Source: a virus. From it: a stretch of DNA of 34,591 nt. A model generated the notes under the pieces. It had not been told where the DNA came from. It did no database searches and worked only from the letters and a program-made list of their open reading frames with translations. Positions 2,081 to 17,053 of the stretch are shown here, in pieces; position 1 is the stretch's first letter; the number at the start of each line of letters is the position of its first letter. The position numbers and the translations under genes were made by a program. The stretch spans positions 1 to 34,591 of IMG/VR virus record IMGVR_UViG_3300031963_000513, one strand, 5' to 3'.

Positions 2081-2119
2081 GTAGTGGCAAACAATAAACT
2101 TTAAGTAAAGGAAACTACA

Positions 2120-2746: not shown

Positions 2747-2821
2747 GTAGCATGGGGGAAAGCGGATGCTGACCAGTTAGCTGAAATGCAAAGGCAGTGC
2801 AGCGAGTACCCCACCTTTTCT

Positions 2822-2896
2822 ATGACCCCGGTCATCTAATCATCAGGCTCTTCCTTGGTCGGTTCGGCCTGATGCTGGCAAGATGACAGGGGTCAC
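2822..2896. promoter_or_regulatory. Dyad sites and hairpin in the leader of the polymerase gene
   Basis: The gap 2747-2904 holds three dyads. ATGACC-CC-GGTCAT lies at 2822-2835. An 8-bp perfect stem, CATCAGGC (2841-2848) with GCCTGATG (2867-2874), has an 18-base loop. ATGACAGGGGTCAC lies at 2883-2896 and equals the reverse complement of 2822-2835 at 12 of 14 positions. The last dyad covers the only ribosome-binding-like bases (AGGGG) before the polymerase ATG at 2905. An mRNA structure or a bound protein here could limit polymerase synthesis. Confidence 0.4.
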
Positions 2897-2904
2897 CCTC
2901 TACC

Positions 2905-4896
2905 ATGACCGTATTGTTTGCAGATTTCGAGACCCGCAGTCGTTGCGACCTTCCGTCGCGCGGCGGGTACAACTACAGCTTAGACGCAAGCACATCCATT
3001 CTGTGCTTTTCCTATGCTTTTGGAGACGACGATGTACAAACGTGGACGCCAGATCAACCATTCCCTGAATCAGTATCAGAACACATTCGCGCTGGTAAAC
3101 AACTGCGGTTTCATAACGCCGGTTTTGATCGTCAGATCTTTTGGAATGTCTTATGCCAAGATTTTGGCGTACCGAAGCCTGCGCTTGAACAATTCTACTG
3201 CACCGCTGCACAAGCGCGTGCGAACTGCTTACCTGGCAGCCTCGAAGACGTCGGACGAGCCATCAGCAGCAATATGCGAAAAGACCACCGAGGAAGCCAG
3301 CTTATCCGACTACTTTCCATCCCTCGCGCTGATGGATCGTTTAACAATTCGCCAGAACTAATGGCCGAGATGATCCGCTATTGCGAACAAGACGTCCGTG
3401 CCATGCGCGCGATTTCCAAGGCCATGCGGCCACTATCCGAGCAGGAGCTGGCCGACTACCACACCAACGAGCGCATCAACGACCGTGGCGTGCTGCTGGA
3501 TCTACCACTGGCACAAGCGGCCATTCGCTACGCATCGGTCGAACTCGAAGAGATCGAGACGTTAGTCGCTGAGCTGACCGAAGGTGAGATCGCGTCGGTG
3601 CGCAGTCCGCGCATGAAGTCGTGGGTCATGGCCCGCGTCGGACCGCAAGCGTTAAAGATGATGGAGACGTACAAGGACGGCGAACTAAAGTACAGTATCG
3701 ACAAGTCTGTACGCGCTAATTTGCTGGCTTTTGCCGAGGAGAACCCTGATGAGATTCCGACCACTGTTGCGGACGTCATTCAATGCGCAGATGACCTCTG
3801 GGCGTCGTCGGTTGCGAAGTTCAGCCGCCTTGCGAGCCTGGCAGATGAAGACGATCAACGAGTACGAGGTGCTTTCGTATTTGCAGGAGGATCTGCCACA
3901 GGACGTGCTTCAAGCTATGGCGCGCAAGTTCACAACTTTACGCGCAAGTGCGCCGCAGCCCCAGATGACGTTAGGCACGCTATGGTCAGAGGCCACAGCA
4001 TCGTCCCAGGATTTGGAAAACGCGTTACTGATGTTCTCAAGGGAATGCTCCGGCCCGCACTGATCCCCGCACCCGGTAAACAGTTCGTTGTCGCCGATTG
4101 GTCAGCGGTCGAAGCACGGGTGACCGCTTGGGCATCAGCCGACCCGCAGGCCGAGGAGGTGCTAGACACCTTCCGCGCAGGCAAAGACATTTACATCCGC
4201 GAAGCCGCCGGCATCTATCGTGTGCCGTATGAGGAGATCGCCGAAGAATACGAAGCCACCGATCAATCCGAGCGGCGCCAGATCGGCAAGGTCGCGATCC
4301 TTTCGTTAGGGTTTGGCGGCTCGATCGGCGCCTTCTCGGCGATGGGCCGCAATTACGGTGTCTTCATGCCCGAGTCGGATTCGCGCCGCATTGTAGACGC
4401 ATGGCGTCGCGCGAACCCGTGGGCGGTGCGTTACTGGGGCAAGCTCGAAGAGGCGTACACAAGGGCGCTGCGCAATCCTGGACGGGAGTTCACCGCTGGG
4501 CGGGTGACGTACCTGTTCCAAGGTCAGCATCTTTGGTACGCATTACCGTCAGGTCGCATTCTGTGCTACCCGTTCGCACGGTTCGAGGGCGACGAGATCA
4601 CGTACGTCAAGGCAGCCTGGAAGCCGGCAGCAGACGCCAAAGAATGGCCACGGGCACGCTTGTGGCGCGGGCTCGCCTGTGAGAATATAACGCAGGCGGT
4701 CGCCAACGATCTGCTACGGCACGCTTTACGCCAATTAGATGACGTAGTGCTGCACGTGCATGATGAGATCGTTCTGGAGACGGCAGACCCTGATGCACCC
4801 AATACCCTAAAGCAAGTGATGTGCACTGCGCCCGATTGGGCTGCAGGGCTCCCTTTGAACGCCGGTGTCAAAACTATGACGCGCTACGGCAAATAA
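2905..4896 (+). CDS. polA: Family A DNA polymerase with 3'-5' proofreading domain, Leu at the 762-equivalent position
   Basis: This 663-residue replicative polymerase lacks the 5'-3' nuclease domain of cellular Pol I. Proofreading motifs are present: Exo I DFE (Asp7, Glu9), Exo II HNAGFD (Asp75) and Exo III YCEQD (Tyr159, Asp163). Polymerase motif A is VVADWSAVEARV (Asp398), motif B is RRQIGKVAILSLGFGG (Arg458, Lys462) and motif C is HVHDEIV (His619, Asp620). Aligning motif B to E. coli Pol I puts Leu466 at Phe762 and Phe470 at Tyr766. The length is typical of T7-like and related phage enzymes. It lies between the SSB candidate and the primase-helicase. The start at 2905 has only a weak AGGGG ribosome binding site inside a dyad. 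Confidence 0.95.
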   Translation: MTVLFADFETRSRCDLPSRGGYNYSLDASTSILCFSYAFGDDDVQTWTPDQPFPESVSEHIRAGKQLRFHNAGFDRQIFWNVLCQDFGVPKPALEQFYCTAAQARANCLPGSLEDVGRAISSNMRKDHRGSQLIRLLSIPRADGSFNNSPELMAEMIRYCEQDVRAMRAISKAMRPLSEQELADYHTNERINDRGVLLDLPLAQAAIRYASVELEEIETLVAELTEGEIASVRSPRMKSWVMARVGPQALKMMETYKDGELKYSIDKSVRANLLAFAEENPDEIPTTVADVIQCADDLWASSVAKFSRLASLADEDDQRVRGAFVFAGGSATGRASSYGAQVHNFTRKCAAAPDDVRHAMVRGHSIVPGFGKRVTDVLKGMLRPALIPAPGKQFVVADWSAVEARVTAWASADPQAEEVLDTFRAGKDIYIREAAGIYRVPYEEIAEEYEATDQSERRQIGKVAILSLGFGGSIGAFSAMGRNYGVFMPESDSRRIVDAWRRANPWAVRYWGKLEEAYTRALRNPGREFTAGRVTYLFQGQHLWYALPSGRILCYPFARFEGDEITYVKAAWKPAADAKEWPRARLWRGLACENITQAVANDLLRHALRQLDDVVLHVHDEIVLETADPDAPNTLKQVMCTAPDWAAGLPLNAGVKTMTRYGK

Positions 4897-4899
4897 AAA

Positions 4900-4919
4900 A
4901 GCCGCCTGGCAGGGCGGCT
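4900..4919. terminator. Hairpin terminator or attenuator between polymerase and primase-helicase
   Basis: AGCCGCC (4900-4906) and GGCGGCT (4913-4919) form a 7-bp GC-rich stem with a 6-base loop. On the plus strand only CTTTC follows, so it would terminate weakly. On the minus strand the complement of the A run at 4895-4900 gives a good U tract. It probably attenuates rightward transcription or blocks leftward transcription. Confidence 0.55.
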
Positions 4920-4941
4920 CTTTCAACTACCGGAGACTACG

Positions 4942-7248
4942 TTGGAATTCCTTGATTATATACAGAATCTCGCGCCCGAGGGCGAAACAGCCTTAATCGT
5001 TCGTCAAAAACCTATCCTATCCGACGGCAAGCTACAGTTCCACGCGGACGGCGCCGTCAAATGCACATGGCCCGCCTACCTGCCCACACATAAGCGCAAA
5101 GACGGCGAGAGCTGGTACGGCAACACGGCGTCGTTCATCAAAGACCGCTTCAAGGATGGGCGCCCCAGCGCGTCAGCCGCTAATTGCGAGTACATCCTGG
5201 TGATGATGTTAGACGACATCGGCACCAAATCGAAGACACCGCCGCTAGAACCCACCTGGATCATGGAGACGTCGCCCGGCTCATTCCAATGGGGTTACGC
5301 ATTCTCAGAGCAGCCGACTAAGGCCGATTTCGCAGCAGCGATCCGCGCGATTGCAGACGCTGGCTACACGGACCCCGGCGCTTGCAATCCGGTGCGCAAC
5401 TTCCGCCTGCCCGGCTCGGTCAACCTAAAACCAGGCCGCGAGAGCTTCAAGGCGCAACTGGCTCGCTTTAATCCCGAGCGCGAGTACACACTGGAGCAAA
5501 TCTGCGCAGCGCTCGATGTGACGCCGGTCGCCGGTGTCGGTCTTGGACCGGTGCCGATCCGGCTGCAGGATGACGGCAGCGACGACGTCATGGCGTGGCT
5601 CTCCGAGCAGGGGCTGTTCCTGCGGCATCCGAACCCTGAAGGCTGGGCTGGCGTCATCTGCCCGAACCATGCCGAACATACCGACGGTAACCCTGAAGGG
5701 CGCTACCACCCAGCAAACCGGGCGTACTGCTGCCTGCACTCGCACTGCATCGAACTCGGCTCGGCGGCTTTTCTGGAGTGGGTCGCAGCCAATGGCGGCC
5801 CAAAACACTCGCCCGGCCCGCGTGAGGAACTATTGGCTGCAGTGATGACGACTGCCTTGTCGAAAATCCCCGGCGCTGGCATATTCGAAGACACGGCGGC
5901 GCAGATCGTGCAGGATATGGCCGCCAAGGACGAGCAGCGCCAGAACGCGCGCGGGCAGAAGGAAGATTGGTACAAGAGGTTTGCGTATGTACAAGAGGAT
6001 GAAAGCTATTTTGATCTGCGCGACCGTCGGGAAATTTCTCGATCTACTTTTAACGCACTTTTCCGACATATCCCCTGCCGGTCCATACATAACGGCGCCA
6101 AAATTGAGGCGGCTACGTGTTTCGACGAGAACCGCGAATCGAAGGATGCTTATGCGCTGGTCGGCATAACGTACGCGGCGGGCGACGATATTATCGTCCA
6201 CCGTAACGGCCATCAGTACGGCAACCGCTGGCGCGACGCCCGGCCTGCAGGCGTCCCAGGCGACGTGACACCGTGGCTGGACCATGTCATGCGCATGATT
6301 CCGACTGATTTTGAGCGTGAGCATTTCTTGAACGCGCTGGCCTTCAAGGTCCAGCACCCTGACCGCAAGATCAACCACGCTATTTTAGTCGGCGGCCATC
6401 CTGGCAGCGGCAAAGACACCATGCTGGCGCCGTTTTTCTGGGCGATCGGCGGGTTGACTAAACAGAACTGCAGCCTGGTTAAGAACGAAGACTTAAACAG
6501 CCAGTGGGGCTACGCGCTCGAATGCGAGGTGATGGAAATCGCCGAGCTGCGCCAGAGCGAGGCACGCGATAGGCGAGCGCTTGAAAACGCTTTGAAACCT
6601 ATCATTGCAGCGCCGCCTGAGCTGTTGCAGGTGAACCGCAAGGGCTTGCACCCCTACATGGCGCTAAACCGTGTGTTTGTCGTCGCCTTTTCGAACGAGC
6701 GCGCAGCGATTTCAATCCCATCGAACGACCGCCGCTGGTTTTGCCTGTGGGCGGAAGCAGGCCGCCTACCTGAAGCAGACGCGTCGCGCTTGTGGCGCTG
6801 GTACCAGACCGGCGGCGGCTTTGAGGCGATCGCGTCCTGGCTGCACCAGCGTGATGTGACGGCGTTTAACCCTTCAGCGGCTCCACCGATGACCGAAGCG
6901 AAGGCCATCATGATCGACCAGGGCCGCAGTACCGCAGAGTCATACCTGATCGAGCAGATCACTGGCCGGCTGGGCGAGTTTGCCGGCGGCGTCATTGCGT
7001 CGCCCTTTTTCGCGCTTTGCGACCGACTAGCGGGCGCCGCGCCTTCAGGCGTGAAAGTCCCACAAGTAGCACTGCTACACGCGCTCAGTGAGGCTGGCTG
7101 GGTCGACATGGGGCGCATACACTCGGCCGAGCATCAAACCAGGAAGCAAATCTACTGCGCGCCGGAGCTGGCGACCCTGTCGAAAGCAGAACTGCGCCGC
7201 ATGGCGGAGGATGTACCAGCGCCTGCAGCCGTTCGGCTGGTCAAATAA
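4942..7248 (+). CDS. Primase-helicase: RepB-type primase, zinc site, DUF5906-like superfamily 3 helicase
   Basis: The 768-residue protein uses TTG at 4942, five bases after GGAGA. Residues 1-170 resemble the RepB/archaeo-eukaryotic primase fold: MLDDIGTK (Asp91-Asp92), SPGSFQWGYA, then NPVRNFRLPGSVNLKPG. Cys240, His243, Cys263, Cys264, His266 and Cys269 form a probable zinc site (VICPNHAEH, CCLHSHC). The C-terminal part is an AAA/SF3-like helicase: Walker A VGGHPGSGKDT (484-493), Walker B-like ECEVMEIAEL (527-536), sensor VAFSNE (Asn585) and arginine finger NDRRWF. Such proteins prime and unwind at the phage origin. It follows the polymerase gene and closes the operon. No separate initiator protein is seen in this operon. 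Confidence 0.88.
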   Translation: MEFLDYIQNLAPEGETALIVRQKPILSDGKLQFHADGAVKCTWPAYLPTHKRKDGESWYGNTASFIKDRFKDGRPSASAANCEYILVMMLDDIGTKSKTPPLEPTWIMETSPGSFQWGYAFSEQPTKADFAAAIRAIADAGYTDPGACNPVRNFRLPGSVNLKPGRESFKAQLARFNPEREYTLEQICAALDVTPVAGVGLGPVPIRLQDDGSDDVMAWLSEQGLFLRHPNPEGWAGVICPNHAEHTDGNPEGRYHPANRAYCCLHSHCIELGSAAFLEWVAANGGPKHSPGPREELLAAVMTTALSKIPGAGIFEDTAAQIVQDMAAKDEQRQNARGQKEDWYKRFAYVQEDESYFDLRDRREISRSTFNALFRHIPCRSIHNGAKIEAATCFDENRESKDAYALVGITYAAGDDIIVHRNGHQYGNRWRDARPAGVPGDVTPWLDHVMRMIPTDFEREHFLNALAFKVQHPDRKINHAILVGGHPGSGKDTMLAPFFWAIGGLTKQNCSLVKNEDLNSQWGYALECEVMEIAELRQSEARDRRALENALKPIIAAPPELLQVNRKGLHPYMALNRVFVVAFSNERAAISIPSNDRRWFCLWAEAGRLPEADASRLWRWYQTGGGFEAIASWLHQRDVTAFNPSAAPPMTEAKAIMIDQGRSTAESYLIEQITGRLGEFAGGVIASPFFALCDRLAGAAPSGVKVPQVALLHALSEAGWVDMGRIHSAEHQTRKQIYCAPELATLSKAELRRMAEDVPAPAAVRLVK

Positions 7249-7385: not shown

Positions 7386-7643
7386 CTAACATGTTGGGCC
7401 TTCCTGCAGCGCTTCAGCGGCTTCGCGTTCGATATCTTTGACAATCTGATCCTTCAGTAGATCGACGATATCCACACCGCCGGCGTACGCGTGGATCAAC
7501 CAGGCATTACCAGCAAACCCGACTGACCGGTCAGCGGGTTCCCAGTCGACAAAGCAGAGCAGTTCAGTGTCGCCGTGGTGATATGTGTATGGCCAGAGGT
7601 GCGCCGGATACCACGGCGCGCTGGTATCAATTTGCGTTTTCAT
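7386..7643 (-). CDS. Hypothetical protein, last gene of the leftward operon
   Basis: The 85-residue protein is rich in Trp, Tyr and His near its start (APWYPAHLWPYTYHHGD) and ends in an acidic helix (DIVDLLKDQIVKDIEREAAEAL). It has no signal peptide or membrane segment, and I recognise no family. Its ATG at 7643 overlaps the end of the preceding gene by 17 bases, so it is probably translationally coupled. It is the last gene before the hairpin cluster. Confidence 0.65.
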   Translation of the reverse strand: MKTQIDTSAPWYPAHLWPYTYHHGDTELLCFVDWEPADRSVGFAGNAWLIHAYAGGVDIVDLLKDQIVKDIEREAAEALQEGPTC

Positions 7644-7911
7644 CTATCACCTCGAATAGTGGCATGGTGTAATCGTATTGTGCAGCGCTTTCGGTACTGG
7701 CACCGGTATAGTCGACCGATTGCAAAAAATTCAACGCGTCAAACCGGCGAATGTAATCGGCCGTCGACACTGTCGGTGTCCAGGTAGGAAACTTGCGCAG
7801 ATCCTTAGGCTTTTTCGGTTTCCAGGCTTTGCGCGCCGTTTTGGCTAGCTCGACCGGGTCCCGGTCGAATTTCACTTTATAGGTCGTTCCGTCAATTTTT
7901 ATCGTTTGCAT
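7627..7911 (-). CDS. Hypothetical protein
   Basis: The 94-residue protein begins MQTIKIDGTTYKVKFDRDP, a short beta hairpin, followed by a very basic Lys/Pro/Trp segment (ARKAWKPKKPKDLRKFP) that could bind nucleic acid. The C-terminal half is acidic. The start at 7911 lies inside the preceding 59-residue gene (13-base overlap), with TGGAG about ten bases upstream. The family is not recognised. Confidence 0.65.
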   Translation of the reverse strand: MQTIKIDGTTYKVKFDRDPVELAKTARKAWKPKKPKDLRKFPTWTPTVSTADYIRRFDALNFLQSVDYTGASTESAAQYDYTMPLFEVIDENAN

Positions 7912-8078
7912 AGCTCAGACTCCATTAAGTAAGTATTGATTAAATGCAGCGCTTTTTCGGCACTTTCGGCGTTTGCATTCTCGAGCAAGGCGCGCGCTTG
8001 CCAAAGTAGTGATTCATTCGAGCCGGTCATTTCGGCGGTTTCTTGCGCGCGCAGAATCGCGGTTTTGAGTTTTGCCAT
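7899..8078 (-). CDS. Small helical hypothetical protein
   Basis: A 59-residue frame runs from ATG 8078 to TAA at 7899-7901, with AGAGGG eight bases upstream. The protein is all helix: MAKLKTAILRAQETAEM, then ESLLWQARALLENANAESA and EKALHLINTYLM. The spacing of hydrophobic residues suggests a two-helix hairpin that could dimerise. It overlaps the next gene by 13 bases. The function is unknown. The clear ribosome binding site, the Ala/Leu-rich helical composition and its place in a gap-free operon support it. Confidence 0.65.
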   Translation of the reverse strand: MAKLKTAILRAQETAEMTGSNESLLWQARALLENANAESAEKALHLINTYLMESELCKR

Positions 8079-8080
8079 AA

Positions 8081-8233
8081 TTAACCCTCTAATAATAATT
8101 TTTTGAGATACGGCACGGCAAAACCCGTCAAATTAGACAATTCCTTCAATGTCATATTCGGGTTTTGATCATAAATTCGTTTGATATCATCATGCGTAAG
8201 CCCGTTAATCGAGCGTTTTAGTGTGTATGCCAT
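8081..8233 (-). CDS. Small helix-turn-helix-like protein
   Basis: A 50-residue frame runs from ATG 8233 (GGAGAG upstream) to TAA 8081-8083. After a short N-terminus, HDDIKRIYDQNPN and MTLKELSNLTGFAVPYLKKL form helix-turn-helix pattern blocks: a helix, the L-x-x-L-T-G-x turn, then a recognition-like helix. It could be a transcription regulator or a small DNA-binding partner. It lacks any added domain, so autoregulation or a Cro-like role is only a guess. It sits mid-operon between 8251 and 8078 with two-base gaps on the downstream side. Confidence 0.65.
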   Translation of the reverse strand: MAYTLKRSINGLTHDDIKRIYDQNPNMTLKELSNLTGFAVPYLKKLLLEG

Positions 8234-8250
8234 TGTTTTACTCTCCAGGT

Positions 8251-8415
8251 TTACCACAGCGCACGGCCGTGGCTTTCGATTGTCGGAACAGCGCGCGCCG
8301 GTATAGGCACGCGCCGCGTGATATACCGGCCATTAGCCGGCGGATAGTCAAGCCACTGAATAACCGTATCAAAACAGTCTAAGCGGCCGTATTGCAGCCG
8401 GTAACGGCCGCTCAT
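8251..8415 (-). CDS. Hypothetical basic protein
   Basis: The 54-residue protein starts MSGRYRLQYGRLDCF. I chose ATG 8415 over the GTG at 8436 because it overlaps the TGA of the upstream gene as ATGA. It is rich in Arg, Tyr and Pro (ITRRVPIPARAVP), with a predicted pI well above neutral. The family is not recognised. Its DNA carries three GCCGGTA boxes (8297, 8324, 8397). Confidence 0.55.
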   Translation of the reverse strand: MSGRYRLQYGRLDCFDTVIQWLDYPPANGRYITRRVPIPARAVPTIESHGRALW

Positions 8416-8639
8416 AGGGTGCAACACCCGCAACACGGCGCGTCAATACACCGGCCGCGCGCGTTTTGGTAGTACGTGTGCGCGCCGTTCTCGCCGTAAA
8501 GCGTGATCGTATCCACGGCCGTGCGGCGCCGCTCGAGCAAAACCGTGCGACCCTTAGACCATTGGATCAGGTCGCCGGCCAGTATGCGCGCGCCGGTAGC
8601 GGCGCATGTGCCGGTATATTTTGCGGTTATGGTTTTCAT
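8412..8639 (-). CDS. Hypothetical Cys-containing protein, possible zinc site
   Basis: The 75-residue protein starts at ATG 8639, right after the TAA of the Gp88-like gene, with the strong site GGGGAGGG 11 bases upstream. A longer in-frame start at 8705 would lie inside that gene and is unlikely. Sequence blocks: MKTITAKYTGTCAATGARIL, then GDLIQWSKGR and ENGAHTYYQNARGR, ending CIDAPCCGCCTL. The first block resembles small beta proteins that bind DNA or zinc (one Cys near GTC, five Cys at the end), but no complete zinc motif is clear. Confidence 0.6.
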   Translation of the reverse strand: MKTITAKYTGTCAATGARILAGDLIQWSKGRTVLLERRRTAVDTITLYGENGAHTYYQNARGRCIDAPCCGCCTL

Positions 8640-8640
8640 T

Positions 8641-9393
8641 TTAATAATCCCTCCCCTTAATTTGGACAAAACCGCCGGTGTCGCGTTTTGCCTTGCCTTT
8701 GGCATATAAGGCCACTACCACGCCGGCCGGTTCAATGTGACGTACATCAGTGTCATCGCCGTCAACGACCGGCCATCCGCGAAATTCGGCCGGTATATCG
8801 GCTTGCTTTTGGAATACCACGGCCGTGCGTTTATTTGCCGGATTAATCAGGCCTTTAATTGAGATCGGTTTTGGCGTGATAGCGCTGAATGAATAGGTTA
8901 AATCGTAATTGCCGGCCGTTTTGCCGTCTAACTTGCGGCTTGGGTGCTTTGTGTAATCGTAGAATTGAACGTCCGCGAACAGCTGGAAAATCGTTTTTCC
9001 GTCAATTTGGATGTTTTCAAACGGGATATCGGACGTTCCATTCGGCCGTACCAGTGGAATCAGGCCAAGCTTTTCGGCACGGCGAGCGTGCGACCATATA
9101 TCGGCGGCCATTGAGAGCATAAACGCGCGCTGATTCTCGCGGAAAAACGCCGTTTTAGCGGCGCGTGCCTTTTGCGTACTGTTAAACGCGCCACGGCCGG
9201 ATGATTTCAGGCACGGCTCGAAACAACCGGCCATAATCGCGAACGGGCAGAGCTTTTCATCCGGTACCAAATAGCAGATAGCGGTTAGATAACCGATTTT
9301 TTGGCCTTTGATCGTTTTGGCGCTGGATTCGCCCAATATTGGCCGGTAAGGTAGGTTTTCGCGTTTGAGCTGGAGTTTGAACGGGTTTTGCAT
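8641..9393 (-). CDS. Gp88-like (DUF7227-type) phage protein of unknown function
   Basis: The 250-residue protein starts MQNPFKLQLKRENLP at 9393, with AGGGA upstream; a longer start at 9480 would overlap the 29-residue gene and lacks a site. Key features are GYLTAICYLVPDEKLCPFAI, then AGCFEPCLKSSGRGAF with a cluster of three Cys, ARAAKTAFFRENQRAFM, and FADVQFYDYTKHPSRK. This order (small C-P-x-A, G-C-x-x-x-C-L, a basic helix with R-x-x-F-M, then FYDYTK-R) is what I associate with the mycobacteriophage Gp88/DUF7227 family, which has no proven function. It is the largest gene of the leftward operon. Its Cys cluster suggests metal or Fe-S binding. Confidence 0.65.
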   Translation of the reverse strand: MQNPFKLQLKRENLPYRPILGESSAKTIKGQKIGYLTAICYLVPDEKLCPFAIMAGCFEPCLKSSGRGAFNSTQKARAAKTAFFRENQRAFMLSMAADIWSHARRAEKLGLIPLVRPNGTSDIPFENIQIDGKTIFQLFADVQFYDYTKHPSRKLDGKTAGNYDLTYSFSAITPKPISIKGLINPANKRTAVVFQKQADIPAEFRGWPVVDGDDTDVRHIEPAGVVVALYAKGKAKRDTGGFVQIKGRDY

Positions 9394-9416
9394 GGTCGGT
9401 TCCCTGGAAAGTGAAA

Positions 9417-9506
9417 TTAATAAGCCAGGCACATAAAGACGAATAACGCCAGCGCCGCGAATGCGCCGATCGCGCCGCAAATTTCAGCAAGTGTCGGTTT
9501 TTGCAT
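9417..9506 (-). CDS. 29-residue single-pass membrane peptide
   Basis: The frame runs from ATG 9506 to TAA 9417-9419 with GGAG nine bases upstream. The peptide is MQKPTLAEICGAIG followed by a hydrophobic stretch (AFAALALFVFMCLA), enough for one inner-membrane span. Phages encode many such peptides, some of which inhibit host processes or regulate holins. The function here is unknown. The good site and the position in a tight operon argue that it is translated. Confidence 0.55.
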   Translation of the reverse strand: MQKPTLAEICGAIGAFAALALFVFMCLAY

Positions 9507-9524
9507 TTTCTTTTCTCCGATAGT

Positions 9525-9542
9525 GGCCGGCTTTCGCCGGCC
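9525..9542. other. Perfect 7-bp hairpin in the leftward operon leader
   Basis: GGCCGGC (9525-9531), loop TTTC, GCCGGCC (9536-9542) lies between the first and second genes of the leftward operon. Neither strand has a following T tract, so mRNA processing or attenuation is as likely as termination. Confidence 0.5.
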
Positions 9543-9549
9543 GTTTGAT

Positions 9550-9735
9550 TTAGATTCTGAATTCAGGATGGCCGGCTAACCGAAGGCCTTCAGCCAGAGC
9601 GATCAGATCGCGCCGGCTTTTCTCCGTGCGTGATACGCGAATCAATGATGACAATATGCGCGCTGCTGATACATCATTACCAGCGAAAACGTGTGATTCG
9701 ACAATCGCCGCTTGTTTAGTTTCGAATTTAGTCAT
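9550..9735 (-). CDS. Hypothetical protein, first gene of the leftward operon
   Basis: The 61-residue protein starts at ATG 9735 with GGAGA upstream, about 40 bases after the predicted transcription start. It is helical and charged: MTKFETKQAAIVESHVFAG, then SAARILSSLIRVSRTEKSRR and LIALAEGLRLAGHPEFRI. There is no membrane segment and no known family. As the first gene behind a strong promoter it is likely an early protein. Confidence 0.65.
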   Translation of the reverse strand: MTKFETKQAAIVESHVFAGNDVSAARILSSLIRVSRTEKSRRDLIALAEGLRLAGHPEFRI

Positions 9736-9782
9736 GATTTTTTCTCCGCTTGAGTGAATAAATTATTGTGTTGCTGAAACCT

Positions 9783-9810
9783 AGTATAAGACTTTTCTTT
9801 GCAATGTCAA
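9783..9810 (-). promoter_or_regulatory. Leftward sigma70-type promoter
   Basis: On the minus strand TTGACA (complement of 9805-9810) is followed after 16 bases by TATACT (complement of 9783-9788), both close to consensus. It drives the leftward operon starting at 9735. Nine ATGGTCA boxes begin 37 bases upstream of the -35. Confidence 0.75.
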
Positions 9811-9846
9811 GGATTGTTTTGCATTTATTTGCGATTCGCGGTTCCA

Positions 9847-10106
9847 ATGGTCATTTAGGGGGTGAAATGGTCATAAAATGGTCATTTGGCACGGGCAAAT
9901 GACCATGACAAAACCCGCATGGATACTAGCTTTTGGCCAATAATGGTCAAATGGTCATTTATTTTTAGATGTTAGTAGTAGTAGTAGGTAATATAGGGAA
10001 TCCCGTGCCGTGCACGCCAGAATCCCGTGTCGTCACGCAAAAATTTTGATTTTGCTTTGGGGTTAGCAGCGATTAAAATTGCATGACCATTTGACCATTT
10101 GACCAT
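9847..10106. repeat. Array of nine ATGGTCA boxes in both orientations (iteron- or operator-like)
   Basis: ATGGTCA occurs at 9847, 9867, 9878, 9943 and 9951, and as TGACCAT at 9900, 10084, 10092 and 10100. The last three form a tandem 8-bp repeat (TGACCATT TGACCATT TGACCATG). Bases 9942-9958 and 10083-10099 are a perfect 17-bp inverted repeat flanking 124 bases that contain (TAG)5 at 9973-9987 and GAATCCCGTG twice (9998 and 10020). The array lies between a strong leftward promoter and the rightward gene at 10123. It could be operators, a replication origin or a partition site. Confidence 0.85.
10052..10079 (+). promoter_or_regulatory. Weak candidate rightward promoter upstream of the RHH-like gene
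   Basis: TTGCTT (10052-10057), 16 bases, TAAAAT (10074-10079). The predicted start would fall on the three tandem TGACCATT boxes (10084-10106), so a protein bound there would block it. Only the -10 is close to consensus. Confidence 0.35.
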
Positions 10107-10122
10107 GTCAGAGTGATAACAT

Positions 10123-10332
10123 ATGCCAGCAGGTAGACCCGCATCAATTCGCACGCGCAATTTCCTGCGTCATTTAACGGATACCGAAGCCGCGATTTTG
10201 GCTCATGCCGGCGACGGCGATATCAGCGCCGGCTTCAAAAATCTACTCGACTGGTATCAGCAAATGCATTGTCAATCGGACAATGCTAACGATTTTGTTA
10301 TATCTGATTGTGAGCCAAAGGGTAATAGTTGA
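10123..10332 (+). CDS. Small ribbon-helix-helix-like protein, candidate regulator
   Basis: The 69-residue protein begins MPAGRPASIRTRNFLRHLTD, then TEAAILAHAGDGDISAGFKN and LLDWYQQMH, followed by a polar, unstructured tail. The order of a short strand, L-T-D-x-E, a helix, a glycine-containing turn and SAGFKNLL is what many small Arc/MetJ/CopG-type proteins show. The match is by pattern only. The start at 10123 has a poor ribosome binding site (CAGAG). Directly upstream are three tandem 8-bp boxes; MetJ-family proteins bind tandem 8-bp boxes, so it could repress itself and the region. It could also be an unrelated small protein. Confidence 0.55.
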   Translation: MPAGRPASIRTRNFLRHLTDTEAAILAHAGDGDISAGFKNLLDWYQQMHCQSDNANDFVISDCEPKGNS

Positions 10333-10698
10333 CGACTGTCAGGTACCGGCAAAATGCACCCGCTTCCTCTCACCCTCACCCCATAGCCCTACCCTATCGA
10401 ATCCTGGCTATCGATAGTCGACCCTCTCGCTCATAGCCGGCTGCTATCGCCGCCGATTATGCGCACATATAACGTACGTTATGTAAAACGCGGCTGATAG
10501 CCGCTTGCTATGGATATCGACCGCTTGCTGGCAGTTTGTTGCCATTTTGATAGGGGGGGGAGGGGTCTGGCTGGCTAGTAAAATTTGCGGGAGCCTCCAA
10601 CCCTCTGAAAAAAGGAAAACAGCCAATCTGGCCAAAGTAGCCAATCCCACCAGAAAGCAGCTACAATCTGCGCAGCTTCCCCACACAGGAAAAAAGCC
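10333..10698. other. 366-bp gene-free region ahead of the terminase genes, rich in palindromes
   Basis: I see no convincing gene on either strand. It contains CTATCGATAG (10408-10417), ATAACGTACGTTAT (10469-10482, a perfect 14-bp palindrome), GCGGCT-GAT-AGCCGC (10490-10504), a direct repeat CCGCTTGCT (10501 and 10521), CTATCG words at 10393, 10408 and 10443, and a G8-A-G4 tract at 10553-10565. Headful or cos packaging sites often lie beside or in the small terminase gene, so a pac or cos function and late-promoter elements are both plausible. Confidence 0.5.
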
Positions 10699-11007
10699 AT
10701 GCCAGCCCCGATTAAAGACCCACCGTACGTGCCGCCAGCGACGCTGCCAAAGACCGACACGCAGCGCATCAAAGAGTTGAAGCAAATGCTCATTGAAGGC
10801 AAGGGCGCTGACGTCGTGCAGAAGGTCATCACGATCGCGTTAGACGACGGCCACCCAGGCCAGATGGCCGCCTTAAAGATGTGTATGGACCGCGCACTAC
10901 CGGCGAGCCTGTTTGAGAAGACCGCCGCCCAGCGCAGCGCGATCAACATCACCATTACCGGCATCGGCCAGCCGGAGATCAAGGACATCACGGATGTCGG
11001 ACCTTAA
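10699..11007 (+). CDS. terS: Putative terminase small subunit
   Basis: The 102-residue protein starts at ATG 10699 after AGGAAA. It has a Pro-rich N-terminus, a helical core (TQRIKELKQMLIEGKGADVV, then QKVITIALDDGHPGQMAALK) and MCMDRALPASLFEK, ending in a short beta tail (INITITGIG). The core pattern is common in short podoviral terminase small subunits encoded just before terL. Its role would be to recognise the packaging site and load the large subunit. Assignment is mainly by position and pattern. It overlaps terL by 14 bases. Confidence 0.65.
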   Translation: MPAPIKDPPYVPPATLPKTDTQRIKELKQMLIEGKGADVVQKVITIALDDGHPGQMAALKMCMDRALPASLFEKTAAQRSAINITITGIGQPEIKDITDVGP

Positions 11008-12253
11008 CTTCCAGCTGCTGCCGTGGCAGCAAGAGGTCTTCAACGACAAGACGCGCTTCAAGGTCGTCGCAGCCGGTCGCCGTTGCGGCAAGTCCAGACT
11101 AGCCGCCACCACCTTGCTAATCGAAGGACTGCGCTGCCCGTCAGGATCTGCGGTCTTATATGTCGCACCCACGAACGGTCAGGCGCGGCAGATTATCTGG
11201 AACGTCCTCTTGGATCTGGGACGGGACGTGATCGCCGGCAGTCATGTGAACAACCAGGACATCACGCTAGTCAACGGTGCGGTGATTTACGTCAGGGGCG
11301 CCGACCGCCCCGACACGCTGCGGGGTGTTAGCTTGACCTACGCCGTGCTGGACGAGGTGGCGGACATTAAGCCAGAAGCGTGGGAGCAGGTCATCCGCGC
11401 GTCTCTGTCAGACAAGAAGGGACGAGGGCTCTTCATCGGAACGCCCAAGGGGCGCAACTGGTTCAACGACCTGTACAAGTTAGGCCAGACGGGTGAGGAC
11501 GAGGATTGGAAGAGCTGGCACTTCACGACGAAAGACAACCCGCTGATCGACCCGAAGGAAATCGAGTCAGCGAAAAAGACGTTATCGACCTTTGCATTTA
11601 AGCAAGAGTACATGGCGAGCTTCGACAATGCGGGCTCGGACATCTTCAAGGATGAGTGGATCAAGTACGGCGAGGAGCCCGAGTACGGCAGTTACTTTGT
11701 GGCCGTGGACTTGGCTGGGTTTGAGGAAGTGGCCAAGCAGGCGGCGAACTCGAAAAAGCGGTTAGACGAGACGGCGATCGCGATTGTCAAAGTGACGGAC
11801 GACGGCAAGTGGTTTGTCAAAGACATCCAGCACGGGCGCTGGGACATCCGCGAGACGGCAGCGAAGATTCTAATGGCCATGCGCGACTACCGGCCCCTGT
11901 CGGTCGGGATTGAGCGAGGGGCGCTAAAAAACGCAGTTTTGCCGTATTTGAGTGATTTAATGCGCAAAAATAATGTATATTCGCACATAGTTGATCTCAC
12001 GCATGGCAACCGGAAAAAGGCTGACCGGATCATCTGGAGCCTCCAGGGTCGGTTCGAGCACGGCAGGATCGTGCTGAACCAAGAAGGTGATTTTGAGACC
12101 TTTCTTGACCAGCTGTTGATGTTTCCGGCGCAAGGCGTCCACGATGACCTACCCGATGCGCTCTCTTACATTGACCAGCTGGCGGTGACTTCCTACTTCG
12201 AAGGCGACGCTGACGATGATTGGGAGCCGATAGACGTAATTTCTGGGGTGTAG
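10994..12253 (+). CDS. terL: Terminase large subunit
   Basis: The 419-residue packaging motor starts MSDLNFQLLPWQQEVF at ATG 10994. A longer frame to 10913 would lie inside terS and gives a low-complexity Ser/Arg extension, so I reject it. ATPase motifs: Walker A AGRRCGKS (27-34), Walker B YAVLDE (116-121, Glu121 catalytic) and coupling motif GTPKG (149-153). RNase H-like nuclease: YFVAVDLAG (Asp239), IERGALKN and DDLPDALSYI at the C-terminus. It pumps DNA into the prohead through the portal and cuts the concatemer. The portal gene follows one base later. Confidence 0.95.
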   Translation: MSDLNFQLLPWQQEVFNDKTRFKVVAAGRRCGKSRLAATTLLIEGLRCPSGSAVLYVAPTNGQARQIIWNVLLDLGRDVIAGSHVNNQDITLVNGAVIYVRGADRPDTLRGVSLTYAVLDEVADIKPEAWEQVIRASLSDKKGRGLFIGTPKGRNWFNDLYKLGQTGEDEDWKSWHFTTKDNPLIDPKEIESAKKTLSTFAFKQEYMASFDNAGSDIFKDEWIKYGEEPEYGSYFVAVDLAGFEEVAKQAANSKKRLDETAIAIVKVTDDGKWFVKDIQHGRWDIRETAAKILMAMRDYRPLSVGIERGALKNAVLPYLSDLMRKNNVYSHIVDLTHGNRKKADRIIWSLQGRFEHGRIVLNQEGDFETFLDQLLMFPAQGVHDDLPDALSYIDQLAVTSYFEGDADDDWEPIDVISGV

Positions 12254-12254
12254 G

Positions 12255-14303
12255 ATGGACCAAAACGATTTTGACCAGCCCACTGAGAACGATAAAGAGC
12301 TTATCGCTTTCGTGGTAGAACACTGCGACCGCTGGCGCGACTACCGCAACGTCAACTTTCTCCCGCTTTGGGAAGAATATGAGCGCATCTTCCGTGGCGA
12401 ATGGGCCATTGAAGACAAAACGCGCGACTCTGAACGCTCCCGCATCGTAACCCCCATGACCCAGCAGGCTGTTGAGACACGCCACGCTGAGATCATGGAG
12501 GCGATCTTTGGCTCGGGTGAGTTCTTCGACATCAAGGACGACGTCAAGGACATCGACGGCAACCCGATGGATGTCGAGATGATCAAGATCCAGATGATGG
12601 AGGATCTGAAAAAGGACAAGTTCAGGAAGTACGTTGATCAGATTGAGTTGTTGGCCGAGATTTACGGCACGGGTATCGCCGAGATCACCGTCACAATGGA
12701 GAAGGAATACATCCCGGCGACCCAGCCGATTCCTGGCATGCAAGGCCAAGCGGCTATTGGTGTCAAGGAAGTAGACCGCGTCTCGGTCAAGCCCATACCG
12801 GTGAACCCGAAAAACTTCCTGTGGGATCCCAACGGCACGTCGGTGGACGACTGCATGGGCGTGGCAATTGAGAAGTACGTGTCGATCCACAAGGTGGTGG
12901 CCAACATTGAGAAGGGCGTCTACCGCAAGGTCAACATCGTGCCGACCTACGACGACACGGACTTGGAGCCCACGCAAGAGGTCAGCCAGTACCAGAACGA
13001 AAAGGTCAAACTGCTGACCTACTATGGTCTGGTGCCCAAGGAATATCTGGAGAAGTTGGACAGCGAAGACGAGGAGATGGTTGAGCTCTTCCCCGACGAC
13101 TCGCCTGCTGAAGACTACTCCGACATGGTCGAAGCCATCATCGTGATTGGTAACGACGGCATGCTGCTGAAGGCCGAAGCGAACCCGTACATGATGAAGG
13201 ATCGTCCGGTGTTGACGTACCAGGACGACACGGTGCCTAACCGCCTGCCTGGCCGTGGCACGGTGGAAAAAGCGTACAACATGCAAAAGGCGATCGATGC
13301 ACAGGTGCGCACGCACTTGGACTCGCTGGCACTGACTGCGGTGCCGATGGTGGCAATGGATGCAACCCGTCTGCCACGGGGTGCCAAGTTCGAGGTGCGG
13401 CCGGGCAAGGCGTTCATGACCAACGGCAACCCGTCGGAGATTCTGTATCCGTTCAAGTTCGGTCAGACTGATGGCAGTAGCCTGACGACTGCGCAGGCAT
13501 TCGAGCGCATGCTCTTGCAAGCCACAGGCACCTTGGATAGCCAAGGCATGGTCAGCCAAGTGGCCAGAGATGGTGGCAACGCAGGTATGTCGATGGCGGT
13601 GGCTACCATCATCAAGAAGTACAAGCGTACGCTGGTGAACTTCCAGGAAGACTTCCTGATTCCGTTTATCAAAAAAGCGGCGTTTCGGTACATGCAGTTT
13701 GACCCCGAGCGCTATCCTTCGGTTGATCTGAACTTCGTACCAACTGCGACACTGGGCATCATCGCTCGCGAGTACGAGCAGGCGCAGTTCATCGCCTTGC
13801 TGCAGACCCTTGGCCCCGACACACCGGTGCTGCCATTGATTCTGAAAGGTATTGTGGCCAACAGCTCGCTGTCGAACCGCATGGAGTTGATGGAATCCCT
13901 GACTCAGATGGCCCAGCCGAACCCAGAAGCGCAGCAAGCCGCCATGATGCAGCAGCAGCTGGCCATGCAGGCAGCGCAAGCGCAGATTGCGGTCAATCAG
14001 ACGCAGGCCGAACGCAACCGGGCAGAGGCTATCAACACCACAATCGAGACGAAATTAAAGCCCATTGAGGTGCAGAGCAAGATTATGGCGGCCAATACGC
14101 AAAATCTGCCGACTAACGACGAGATGGCGTCTAGAGAGTTTGACAAACGGGTGAAGATCGCCGAATTGATGCTCAAAGAAGCCGACATCAAGAACAAATC
14201 GAAGATTGTCGAGATGCAAATGGCGGAAAAGCAGAACAAAATCAGCGGCATGGAAGAAGATTTCTTGGAAGAACTGACCAAGGAGCTCTCTGGTGGACGT
14301 TGA
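12255..14303 (+). CDS. Portal protein (P22/T7-like)
   Basis: The 682-residue protein has the podoviral portal pattern: RDYRNVNFLPLWEEYERIFR, SRIVTPMTQQAVETRHAEIM, FFDIKDD, NPKNFLWDPNG and LPGRGTVEKAYNMQKAIDAQ. The C-terminal 130 residues are a long Gln/Ala-rich coiled coil (QQAAMMQQQLAMQAAQAQIA) that fits the barrel extending into the capsid. It forms the dodecameric ring at the packaging vertex. The start lies one base after the terL stop. It overlaps the following fibre gene by 11 bases. The strong codon bias of this gene creates a 649-residue antisense frame that is not real. Confidence 0.92.
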   Translation: MDQNDFDQPTENDKELIAFVVEHCDRWRDYRNVNFLPLWEEYERIFRGEWAIEDKTRDSERSRIVTPMTQQAVETRHAEIMEAIFGSGEFFDIKDDVKDIDGNPMDVEMIKIQMMEDLKKDKFRKYVDQIELLAEIYGTGIAEITVTMEKEYIPATQPIPGMQGQAAIGVKEVDRVSVKPIPVNPKNFLWDPNGTSVDDCMGVAIEKYVSIHKVVANIEKGVYRKVNIVPTYDDTDLEPTQEVSQYQNEKVKLLTYYGLVPKEYLEKLDSEDEEMVELFPDDSPAEDYSDMVEAIIVIGNDGMLLKAEANPYMMKDRPVLTYQDDTVPNRLPGRGTVEKAYNMQKAIDAQVRTHLDSLALTAVPMVAMDATRLPRGAKFEVRPGKAFMTNGNPSEILYPFKFGQTDGSSLTTAQAFERMLLQATGTLDSQGMVSQVARDGGNAGMSMAVATIIKKYKRTLVNFQEDFLIPFIKKAAFRYMQFDPERYPSVDLNFVPTATLGIIAREYEQAQFIALLQTLGPDTPVLPLILKGIVANSSLSNRMELMESLTQMAQPNPEAQQAAMMQQQLAMQAAQAQIAVNQTQAERNRAEAINTTIETKLKPIEVQSKIMAANTQNLPTNDEMASREFDKRVKIAELMLKEADIKNKSKIVEMQMAEKQNKISGMEEDFLEELTKELSGGR

Positions 14304-16584
14304 AAGCCTCGCTAAACAGCTGATTCTTCAAAATATGACGCCAGAGCAGCAAAAAGCTGTTCTGGAGTCGGTTCGTGCCACCCTGCAAGAGGCTCGCGGC
14401 AAGCAAAAACAGCGTGTGAGCGAGAATGTGGGCATGGTGGTAGACGCCTTGAAGAAGATCGAGGCTGATATTCGTGCCAAGTACGATGATTTAGGCAACA
14501 AAATCACCGCTCGGGTCAATTCGATCCGCGATGGCCGGGATGGCACCAATGGATCGGACGGTCGTGATGGCCAAGATGGCCGTCCTGGGCGTGATGGTGC
14601 ACCGGGACCCGCAGGTCCAGCTGGTCGGGACGGTGCCAACGGCATCGATGGCAAGGATGGGGTATCTGTCACCGACGCCAAGATTGATTTTGATGGTTCG
14701 CTCATCATTAGTCTGTCGAATGGCCGTGAAATCAACGTTGGTGAGGTGGTGGCTCCCGACTTAGCGGAGAAAATCAAGGTCATCACCAACGGTGGTGGCA
14801 CGTCGCAGTATGTCTTGGACACACTGGCGTCACTCCAGACGCAGATCAATAACCTGATCCCCAGCCAGACGGGCAATGCAGGTAAGTTCTTGACCACCAA
14901 TGGGTCGGTATTGTCATGGGCGGACGTGGCTGGCGGCTTGGACTACCAAGGCACATGGAATGCGTCTACTAACACGCCAACTTTGGCCTCCGGCGTAGGC
15001 ACCAACGGCTACTACTACGTGGTATCGGTCGATGGTACGACTACCTTGGACGGTATCAGCGACTGGAAAGCGGGTGATTGGCTGCTGTTTAACGGCACCG
15101 TGTGGCAAAAGATTGACCAGAGTTGGGCGATTGCCGGTGCCAACGACAACATCACGTCGATGACGGGCATCACGGGCGGCATTTCATCGCCGGACTTCGT
15201 CCAGTTCGACACAGGCGCCACAGTCACCAACGCAGCAGGCCGTCTGTACTGGGATTCGACGCAACAGACGTTGACAGTAGGTTTGAACGCCAACATCGCG
15301 GCGGATATTGGCCAAACGCTGTACGCCTACGCGACGAATGACGAGGCCGTGACGATCACCAAGGGCCAGCCGGTGTACATGTACGCTGCGCAAGGCGACC
15401 GGGTGTCAGTCAAGCTGGCGTACAACACGGGTGACGCGACTTCAGCCAAAACGCTGGGTATTTGCGCGGAAAATATTGCTGCAGGCCAAGCAGGCATGAT
15501 CTTGTGCCAGGGTGTGCAAGATGGCCTCGATCTGAGTGCCTACACAGCCGGTGATACGCTCTATTTGGGCGCAACTGCCGGCACTTTAACCAGTACGAAG
15601 CCTTACGCACCTAACCATCTGGTCTATATCGGCGTGGTTGAGCGGGCTAATGCGGGCAATGGTCGTCTGTACGTGCGCGTGCAGAATGGCTATGAGATGG
15701 ACGAGCTGCACAATGTGTCAGCGCAGAGTCCATCTAATGGTCAGGTATTGATTTACAACGCATCAACCAGTCTGTGGGAAAAGAATACGCTGACTGATGG
15801 CACGGGCATCACAATTACTGAGGGTGCGGGGTCAATTACGATCACTAATGCAGCGCCTGACCAAACGGTCGCCTTGACGGGCGCTGGTACAACGGCTATC
15901 ACAGGCACCTACCCCAACTTTACGATTACCTCGAACGATCAGTACACAGGCACGGTCACAAGCGTTGGCGGCACCGGTACGGTCAACGGCATTAGCTTGT
16001 CGGGCACGGTCACATCCAGTGGCAGTCTGACCTTGGGCGGCACGCTTTCTGGTGTGGATCTGACTACCCAAGTTACTGGCACGCTGCCGATTGCTAATGG
16101 TGGTACAGGACAGACGACACAGACTGCAGCGTTTGACGCACTAGCGCCGACGACGACTAAGGGTGATTTGATTGTCAATGACGGGTCGGATAATGTCCGC
16201 CTGGCAGTTGGTACCAACAACTATGTATTGACAGCTGACTCTGCACAGGCAACGGGTGTGAAATGGGCAGCTGTGGCAGCCGGCACCACGGTGTCTGACG
16301 ACACCTCGACCAACGCAACGTACTACCCAACGTTCTCAACAGCGACTTCAGGAACGTTCTCAACGGCTACGGTATCGAGTACCAAACTGACCTATAACCC
16401 ATCGCTGGGCGGCTTGACAGCTACACAACTAGGCGCGTCGAATGGTATTTTGTTCACCAACCAGACGATCAATACGTCGGTGACATTTCCAACAGGCTAT
16501 GAAGGCATCAGCGGTAAGAATACAACCGTCGCTAGTGGTGTGACAGTGACTGTCCCCTCTGGCGCTAACTGGACGATAGTGTGA
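14293..16584 (+). CDS. Collagen-like head or tail fibre protein
   Basis: The 763-residue protein starts at GTG 14293. Residues 1-78 form a charged coiled coil. Residues 81-122 are 14 perfect Gly-X-Y triplets (GRDGTNGSDGRDG, then GPAGPAGRDG), a collagen-like triple-helix segment. After a short link comes a beta-rich repeat region: YQGTWNASTNTPTLASG and DWKAGDWLLFNGTVWQKID (a wrapped-strand motif seen in phage fibres), LPIANGGTGQTT, then a C-terminal GTFSTATVSSTKLTYNPS domain that fits a trimeric tip. It lies directly behind the portal, unusual for a fibre, so it may be a head-associated or neck-attached fibre. The host receptor is unknown. Confidence 0.8.
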   Translation: MDVESLAKQLILQNMTPEQQKAVLESVRATLQEARGKQKQRVSENVGMVVDALKKIEADIRAKYDDLGNKITARVNSIRDGRDGTNGSDGRDGQDGRPGRDGAPGPAGPAGRDGANGIDGKDGVSVTDAKIDFDGSLIISLSNGREINVGEVVAPDLAEKIKVITNGGGTSQYVLDTLASLQTQINNLIPSQTGNAGKFLTTNGSVLSWADVAGGLDYQGTWNASTNTPTLASGVGTNGYYYVVSVDGTTTLDGISDWKAGDWLLFNGTVWQKIDQSWAIAGANDNITSMTGITGGISSPDFVQFDTGATVTNAAGRLYWDSTQQTLTVGLNANIAADIGQTLYAYATNDEAVTITKGQPVYMYAAQGDRVSVKLAYNTGDATSAKTLGICAENIAAGQAGMILCQGVQDGLDLSAYTAGDTLYLGATAGTLTSTKPYAPNHLVYIGVVERANAGNGRLYVRVQNGYEMDELHNVSAQSPSNGQVLIYNASTSLWEKNTLTDGTGITITEGAGSITITNAAPDQTVALTGAGTTAITGTYPNFTITSNDQYTGTVTSVGGTGTVNGISLSGTVTSSGSLTLGGTLSGVDLTTQVTGTLPIANGGTGQTTQTAAFDALAPTTTKGDLIVNDGSDNVRLAVGTNNYVLTADSAQATGVKWAAVAAGTTVSDDTSTNATYYPTFSTATSGTFSTATVSSTKLTYNPSLGGLTATQLGASNGILFTNQTINTSVTFPTGYEGISGKNTTVASGVTVTVPSGANWTIV

Positions 16585-16585
16585 T

Positions 16586-17053
16586 ATGCCAATAACAATT
16601 GACGGTAGCGGCACGATTACAGGTTTATCCGCAGGTGGATTGCCTGATAGTTCAATTGTGACTGCTGATATTGCTGATGCAAACATTACTGCGGCTAAGT
16701 TAGATGGCGCTCAGAGTGGATCAGCCCCTATCTATGCTGCTAGAGCATGGGTCAACTTCAACGGCACAGGTACAGTAGCTATCAGAGCTAGTGGTAATGT
16801 GTCGAGTATTACGGATAACGGTACGGGTAACTATACGGTCAACTTTACGACGGCGATGCCGGATGCGAATTATTCCCTTGTTCAGGGCGGCGGCGAAGTA
16901 AATACCTCTACTTTGTATTCTGGATCAACAGCAGCTAGGATTATGCAGCCGGGAGTTTTGTCTGCAAGTAATGCTCAATTTTTTACTGGGTATCAATATT
17001 CAAGTAGCGCGTTGCAAGATGCTGCGTACATATATTTAGCAGTCTTCCGCTAA
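16586..17053 (+). CDS. Tail fibre-like protein A (paralogue of the gene at 17483)
   Basis: The 155-residue protein starts MPITIDGSGTITGL. Residues 31-40 hold the fibre-type word DANITAAKLD. Residues 45-96 carry a WVNFNGTGTVAIRASGNVSS block followed by DNGTG-YTVNF, a unit found in many phage fibres. The C-terminus (QDAAYIYLAVFR) is variable. No chaperone domain is visible. The same block occurs in the gene at 17483 with synonymous changes. It ends 12 bases before the next start. Confidence 0.75.
   Translation: MPITIDGSGTITGLSAGGLPDSSIVTADIADANITAAKLDGAQSGSAPIYAARAWVNFNGTGTVAIRASGNVSSITDNGTGNYTVNFTTAMPDANYSLVQGGGEVNTSTLYSGSTAARIMQPGVLSASNAQFFTGYQYSSSALQDAAYIYLAVFR

Follow-up and report, generated by a model that had tools for sequence, protein, structure and literature searches.

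Among related lambdoid phages, the O proteins match initiator to iterons in a type-specific manner. In phage P4, the alpha protein uses a winged helix to bind the repeats of the origin (PMC4234260). In SaPIs, the C-terminal domain of Rep acts on iterons, and Cch2 needs direct repeats, its isolated C-terminal domain binding the putative origin (PMC7581432). Mapped origins of E. coli PICIs have two iteron sets around an AT-rich region (PMC6092414). In PLE, the DNA-binding domain of RepA covaries with the origin while the rest of the protein is conserved, the modules being swapped, and an origin-directed nuclease (Odn of ICP1) may drive this switching (PMC8263062). The Tail of NrS-1 polymerase has been described as a novel fold that is needed for hexamers and DNA binding (PMC7102993), and as unlike the winged-helix Tail of C962R (PMC10516667).

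Here we describe a repeat array in an uncultured bacteriophage, represented by a 34,591-base IMG/VR virus record, the whole of which we call the window. The array is conserved, occurs in many spellings and covaries specifically with the predicted wing of one phage protein. By analogy with the systems above, the region is very probably the iteron replication origin of a podovirus-like phage, read by the phage's own primase-helicase and switched together with its wing in relatives.

Results

A box array between two divergent gene blocks

The window carries genes for exonuclease, polymerase, primase-helicase, terminase, portal, capsid, tail and lysis proteins. Its main gene blocks run rightward (435-7248), leftward (7386-9735) and rightward again (from 10123), and the box array sits between the second and the third, about 2.6 kb downstream of the primase-helicase gene and across oppositely directed genes. 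The first leftward gene differs between relatives while the array persists. A GP88-family protein (PF17338; 8641-9390, minus strand) lies in the leftward block; it was found in some relatives but not in others with the same boxes, such as G009. No clear switch of GC skew was seen at the array, and a blastn comparison of 9000-16600 with 50,697 phage records gave no match. Four relatives (L221, L222, L223 and L224) are contigs in bacterial genome bins, with primases 52-62% identical; the bins are Rhodoferax, two betaproteobacteria and one Rhizobium sp. (partial match), which gives a weak hint at the host group. The features discussed below are as follows.

4942-7248, plus strand: primase-helicase, 768 aa, the proposed origin-binding initiator, with DUF5906/primase matches
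6931-7212, plus strand: predicted winged-helix domain (residues 664-757), from the model
7120-7146, plus strand: predicted wing tip, residues 727-735 (HSAEHQTRK), with x1 = H727, x2 = S728 and x3 = A729; tracks the box letters
9783-9810, minus strand: candidate leftward sigma-70-type promoter, TTGACA-16-TATACT, 11/12 matches
9847-9884, plus strand: boxes 1-3, left set, exact ATGGTCA (9847-9853, 9867-9873, 9878-9884)
9900-9906, minus strand: box 4, inverted, in an 11-bp inverted repeat with box 3 (9878-9888 / 9896-9906)
9910-9934, no strand: 25-bp AAAA...TTTT core between boxes 4 and 5
9943-9957, plus strand: boxes 5-6, ATGGTCA tandem with 8-bp spacing
9958-10000, no strand: AT-rich stretch, GC 0.26, candidate melting region
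10069-10078, plus strand: GCGATTAAAA element directly before the right boxes
10084-10106, minus strand: boxes 7-9, inverted tandem, right set
10123-10332, plus strand: 69-residue protein, first rightward gene; does not track the box letters

The original prediction had counted nine exact ATGGTCA/TGACCAT boxes in 260 bp, and this was confirmed, with starts at 9847, 9867 and 9878 (plus), 9900 (minus), 9943 and 9951 (plus) and 10084, 10092 and 10100 (minus). The whole window holds 15 copies against 3.2 expected, a number reached in 0 of 100 shuffles. Within 265 bp the window has a cluster of nine copies of a 7-mer, whereas the best such cluster in 60 simulated first-order Markov genomes had 3 (43 genomes) or at most 4 (17 genomes). 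Also present are the inverted repeat of 17 bp (9942-9958 / 10083-10099), the tandem of 8-bp spacing (10084-10106), the duplication of GAATCCCGTG and the (TAG)5 tract; relatives as close as G009 and L147 keep (TAG)5 only in part. Of the two promoters proposed, the strong leftward one is there (9810-9783); a scan of 9500-10800 gave 4 promoter-like sites, none of them the weak rightward one at 10052-10079.

Shared layout and varied spelling in relatives

Relatives were collected in three ways: the small 69-residue protein gave 23 loci, and the best 80 matches were taken from at least 600 for TerL and from 553 for the primase. The counted set comprised 50 distinct upstream regions with the small gene and enough sequence, the window included, and boxes were counted with a hand-made list of 20 box cores, which was also applied to 1,873 control segments from the same records. 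At least six boxes were present in 42 of the 50 regions versus 4 of the 1,873 controls. The usual layout was +++ - ++ [AT-rich] ---; exactly +++-++--- was found in 12 of 50 regions, and many others were one or two boxes off. The eight regions with fewer than six boxes were varied. Degenerate boxes are visible in L020, the array lies ~300 bp further upstream in L152 and L153, an AGGGTCA array is laid out differently in G019 and L087, and in L088 and L102 the small gene is present but not preceded by an array. In the eighth, L161, the array stops after two GTGGGTCA boxes and joins the interior of the small gene, ~2,890 bases downstream of the primase gene; the junction looks like a deletion or an assembly error.

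Box density was also counted in ten records, the window and nine relatives, each with its own spelling. In 10 of 10, the density in the 360 bp before the small gene (5 to 9 own-box copies) was far above that in the rest of the record. Elsewhere, own-box counts were near or moderately above expectation (6 observed versus 3.9 expected in the window, 25 versus 21.5 in G002 and, at the maximum, 11 versus 5.7 in G007).

Among the spellings read were ATGGTCA, GTGGGTCAT, GTGGGCAAT, TTGGGTCAT, GTAGGCAAT, GTAGGTCAT, GTCGGCAAT, GTTAGTCAT, GAGGGCAAT, GCGGGCAAT, GCACGTCAT and GACAGTCAT, and GTGGACAAT and ATGGACAAT occurred in loci where the small gene was not found. One spelling can recur in distant clades, and close relatives can differ in spelling. 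The tandem spacing of 8 bp is not universal, several relatives having 9 bp. The segment from the left to the right set had a mean length of 108 bp, with a GC of 0.29 in the first 45 bp after the last plus box (38 regions). The element before the right boxes is strongly conserved: within 110 bp upstream of the small gene, a looser pattern like GCGATTAAAA occurs in 38 of 50 regions versus 10 of 1,873 controls. By eye and uncounted, an element similar to the 25-bp core stands in the same place in many of 37 printed relative regions.

Some further peculiarities of the arrays were seen. The two halves of the 25-bp core (GCGGG-type and CTAGC-type) are unlike and stand in either order among relatives, as if inverted, and the core is duplicated in L048 and L049. 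In L012, L019 and L030, boxes 6 and 7 are unlike the rest of the array and mutually reverse-complementary (e.g. TGTAGTCAT / ATGACTACA). Another repeat family, GTTAGTG / CACTAAC, reaches 7-9 copies of one 7-mer within 330 bp downstream of the primase gene in seven loci from which the small gene is absent (L175, L178, L182, L206, L207, L209 and L213), directly after the array where this was read (L206, L207 and L209).

Box spelling tracks the predicted wing of the primase-helicase

An alignment of primase-helicases gave the lead. Three complete proteins close to that of the window that go with GAGGGCAAT boxes (G005, L072 and L025) were 95-100% identical in each 48-residue block except the last, where they were only 81-85% identical to the window. 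G009 and L015, which have ATGGTCA boxes, showed 93-95% identity in the last 48 residues and 54% in another 48-residue block. In the distant ATGGTCA phages G004 and G006, the last block was 70% and 66% identical, with mainly the tip letters in common. The differences concentrate in GR-[IVL]-x1-x2-x3-E. L144, at 99% identity to the window across 650 backbone columns, differs from it in both wing and box (HSAEHQ with ATGGTCA in the window, ATRELT with GAGGGCAAT in L144); the two are sisters in a tree of the backbone (residues 1-655). Since wings are scattered over this tree, the matching of wing and box goes beyond descent alone.

In a scan without clade control, the wing scored high but was not singled out (partial r 0.45 at primase 627, 0.42 at polymerase 379 and 0.40 at wing 728); it alone covered the capsid, scaffold, tail and lysis proteins, and l3 and GP88 were dropped from it because of too few genomes (9 and 10). 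A within-clade scan covered 3,484 8-residue segments of 11 proteins, with labels permuted inside clades (2,000 permutations); it was devised after the lead and the first scan were known, and box types and clades were assigned by hand and not blind. The primase was tested in 51 genomes, giving 266 pairs, of which 87 had the same box. Primase segments starting at 720-730 reached z values of 7.2-11.2 (family-wise p within the protein < 1/2000). Other primase segments rose too, at 743-747 (z 5.0-6.7), 389 (z 4.9) and 353 (z 4.7). Outside the primase, the best z values were 3.6 for portal (p 0.084) and 3.4 for polymerase, where p is family-wise within the protein; TerS reached 3.0 with a family-wise p of 0.049 within the protein, before correction for 11 proteins. 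TerS, TerL, portal, polymerase, exonuclease and the ssb-like protein, considered as readers of the boxes, thus showed no comparable within-clade association. The genes between the primase and the array (l1, l2 and l5) had best z values of 2.1, 3.0 (p 0.072) and 2.6. They track far less than the wing, so mere linkage is not easily the explanation. Box spelling therefore tracks the C-terminal domain of the primase-helicase, specifically its predicted wing, and this covariation points to an initiator specificity matched to the repeats.

The primase-helicase is related to the C-terminal region of the NrS-1 primase-polymerase, the relation of the helicase to 6k9c being clear. The sequences match over the helicase part (profile positions 458-660, E 1.4e-6), and the structures match over 338-741 (Z 13.2, 8.5 A, 322 residues). 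The AlphaFold2 model is poor overall (pLDDT 58), including the N-terminal 120 residues, and 10-residue blocks in 661-760 have a pLDDT of 61-89. The modelled C-terminus has helices at 664-674, 689-699 and 708-717, strands at 721-726 and 735-739, and a helix at 748-757. Residues 654-758 matched the extended winged helix 5aim (Z 6.5, 3.8 A, 90 aligned), and PriRep1 with dsDNA (7pds) was matched with the helicase included (Z 5.3, 7.4 A, 228 aligned). In the model, residues 664-757 look like a winged helix, and the tracking residues 727-735 lie at the tip of the hairpin, the wing, outside the helices. The predicted model and middling Z scores support the fold but do not prove it, and a ready winged-helix label is weakened because the Tail of NrS-1, the best structural relative, has been described as a novel fold.

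Wing letters and a candidate code

We distinguished 39 wings in 129 loci, many of which are repeats of one contig, and the array was callable for 36 of them; GSREFP and HSRDFH were left out because their loci end too early, and ASRDHP because it is mixed (GTAGG/GTTGG). Arg at x3 went with G at base 1 in 30 of 30 wings (MSREFT being readable with T at base 1), whereas a non-Arg x3 went with G in 0 of 6 and with A or T in 6 of 6, in at least 4 separate places of the tree. Ser at x2 went with T at base 2 in 30 of 30, and Thr with T in 1 of 6 and A or C in 5 of 6, the exception being STREFA with GTGGGCAAT. At x1, His or Lys went with G at base 3 in 16 of 16, Ala with A in 8 of 11 and Asn with A in 2 of 2; Gly, Ser and Met vary. 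Fisher tests (5e-7 and 2e-5) are descriptive, as wings are non-independent and arrays were called by hand. Mixed arrays also exist: GTGGGTCAT and GTGGGCAAT stand under the same HSREFA wing, GTAGGTCAT and GTAGGCAAT under GSREFL in G001, and GTA and GTG under some ASR wings. The GGTCAT/GGCAAT end of the box is therefore not determined by the x1-x2-x3 triple.

Spellings for new wings were predicted, and the prediction was fixed, before the loci of a new primase search were read. They were right in 3 of 3 unseen contigs with a full array (L147, L155 and L156), L155 having three GAGGGCAAT among its GCGGGCAAT boxes. L161 (HSRDFK), also covered by the prediction, has two boxes only, both of the predicted spelling; L145 and L158 end before the array and stand outside the count. 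Two wings fell outside the wording of the prediction and were unlike the nearest predicted spelling, namely MSREFT with TGTAGTCAT (L152 and L153) and STREHQ with GAGGGCAAT (L160, L162 and L163). ASR wings with a fourth residue other than E go mostly with GTAGG, and the commonest spelling is GTGGG in L168, L173, L175 and L206. The Rhodoferax bin contig L221 is a miss, with ASREFQ and GTTGG-type boxes where the code expects GTAGG. MW202483.1, described as Podoviridae sp., has a primase 52% identical, with a different tip (CFAPEL), and at least 10 GTTTACA boxes; it follows the same principle, and it is no test of the code.

Alternative readers and functions of the boxes

The original prediction proposed the 69-residue protein as a ribbon-helix-helix (RHH) repressor that binds the boxes and controls both divergent operons, a reading to be given up if relatives had the gene without these boxes or the boxes without the gene. 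Its gene adjoins the array, the boxes lie between two divergent genes, and the two helices predicted after an extended stretch (20-30 and 34-50, in a weak model with pLDDT 63) would be compatible with an RHH fold. However, the refuting outcome was obtained, since box spelling changes without the protein. The small proteins of L041 and L042, each of 67 residues, are identical, and the arrays next to them are spelled GTGGGTCAT and GAGGGCAAT, respectively; L011 has a small protein 97% identical to that of the window, yet its boxes are GTAGGTCAT/GTAGGCAA. Conversely, in L034/G009 ATGGTCA boxes stand beside a small protein of another class (67% identical). Among plus-strand ORFs with E up to 0.01, the small gene was not found in seven loci with arrays (L183, L186, L203, L205, L208, L215 and L216) and was found in 28 of 77 loci of the new primase search, some of the others ending early. 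In the within-clade scan, the small protein showed no association with box type (best z 1.5, 24 genomes). Nor was there a convincing family or structure match: structure comparison from the weak model was uninformative, a search of 50,697 phage records gave no match, and pfam and PDB gave weak scattered matches only (best E 0.0076, in 1 of 35 members). The L041/L042 pair and the low z led us to reject the small RHH protein as the reader on grounds of covariation; the RHH repressor is very unlikely, and the protein would be a neighbour of the origin and not its reader.

Covariation tells who binds, not to what purpose, and the primase-helicase domain could bind the boxes mainly as a transcriptional operator of the divergent promoters. 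The array indeed lies upstream of the strong leftward promoter and right before the first rightward gene. This reading is unlikely, as the binder would be a primase-helicase, two sets of boxes with AT-rich DNA between them are also what has been described for E. coli PICI origins (PMC6092414), and the array stays when the first leftward gene changes. The boxes could also mark the places on the template at which the N-terminal primase domain makes primers, like the 8-base site of NrS-1 polymerase; that enzyme starts primers at TTTGGTTA and GTG motifs (PMC8718748). Here covariation is strongest at the C-terminal wing rather than within the primase part, and the boxes stand in both orientations and in fixed sets, making primer sites very improbable. 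A pure base-paired RNA or DNA structure was considered from the inverted repeat of boxes 5-6/7-8 and the matching of boxes 6 and 7. It is opposed by L011, where boxes 3 and 4 and boxes 6 and 7 are mismatched, and by the wing covariation, which points to a protein as the reader of the boxes. Integrase arm sites were set aside since no integrase was named among the 30 window proteins scanned.

Discussion

Short non-coding repeats in two sets flank an AT-rich stretch in the window, as in an iteron origin, and we read the boxes as an origin because of the precedents of P4 alpha, SaPI Rep and the E. coli PICI origins. Of the functions first proposed for this region, the RHH operator finds no support, and the alternative of a replication origin is favoured by the wing covariation and by the position of the boxes around the AT-rich stretch. 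Judging from known relatives, binding, melting and origin activity would proceed as follows. The primase-helicase would bind each box via its C-terminal winged-helix domain, with the beta-hairpin wing reading the variable letters. Copies bound to boxes 1-6 (left set) and boxes 7-9 (right set) would load the helicase onto the intervening AT-rich stretch, where melting and priming would follow. Boxes and wing would have been switched together many times in related phages.

The chances are about evenly balanced that the wing obeys a near one-residue-to-one-base code, in which x3 reads base 1, x2 reads base 2 and x1 reads base 3. On this reading, a few substitutions in the wing, or a small recombination there, would suffice to switch origin specificity, and around a dozen compatible wing/box alleles would serve to keep or change replication identity, perhaps under pressure from origin-directed nucleases or satellites. 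By analogy with PLE, antagonism of the Odn type is a possible driver of the switching. Among the titles listed in literature searches, with most subscription journals outside their coverage, none dealt with this phage group or with such a wing code. These phages offer a large natural set of matched origin/initiator alleles within otherwise near-identical genomes. A change of initiator specificity without loss of function is thereby directly testable with a short domain and short oligonucleotides. The array may also be useful for finding the origins of similar uncultured phages.

The lambdoid O initiator is unrelated and is not known to carry a helicase or primase, and the box letters of P4 differ from those of the window. 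Like P4 alpha, the window's protein would combine primase, helicase and winged-helix binding to origin repeats in one chain, here by prediction; the P4 primase is of the bacterial (Toprim) type (PMC4234260), whereas the best relative of the window's protein is the NrS-1 primase-polymerase. NrS-1 is also the best solved relative, akin in sequence and fold over the helicase region, and the available text of PMC7102993 reports neither an iteron array nor co-switching. The NrS-1 polymerase test oligonucleotide in that text ends in TTTGACCATT, which resembles the right boxes at 10090-10107, probably by coincidence.

PICIs and SaPIs are satellites with the origin directly downstream of rep. The window does not belong among them: its array is ~2.6 kb from the primase gene, it has terminase, portal, capsid and tail genes and no named integrase among 30 proteins, and its array differs in having one inverted box, a 25-bp core and many spellings. 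The PLE initiator is of the RepA_N type, with three ~30 bp repeats and two covarying groups (PMC8263062), whereas the boxes of the window family are 7-9 bp long, come in about a dozen spellings and go with a predicted winged helix. Taken together, these comparisons point to a machine of a known kind, in which an iteron origin is served by its cognate primase-helicase. The setting is new, the number of switched alleles is unusually high, and the candidate code is simple.
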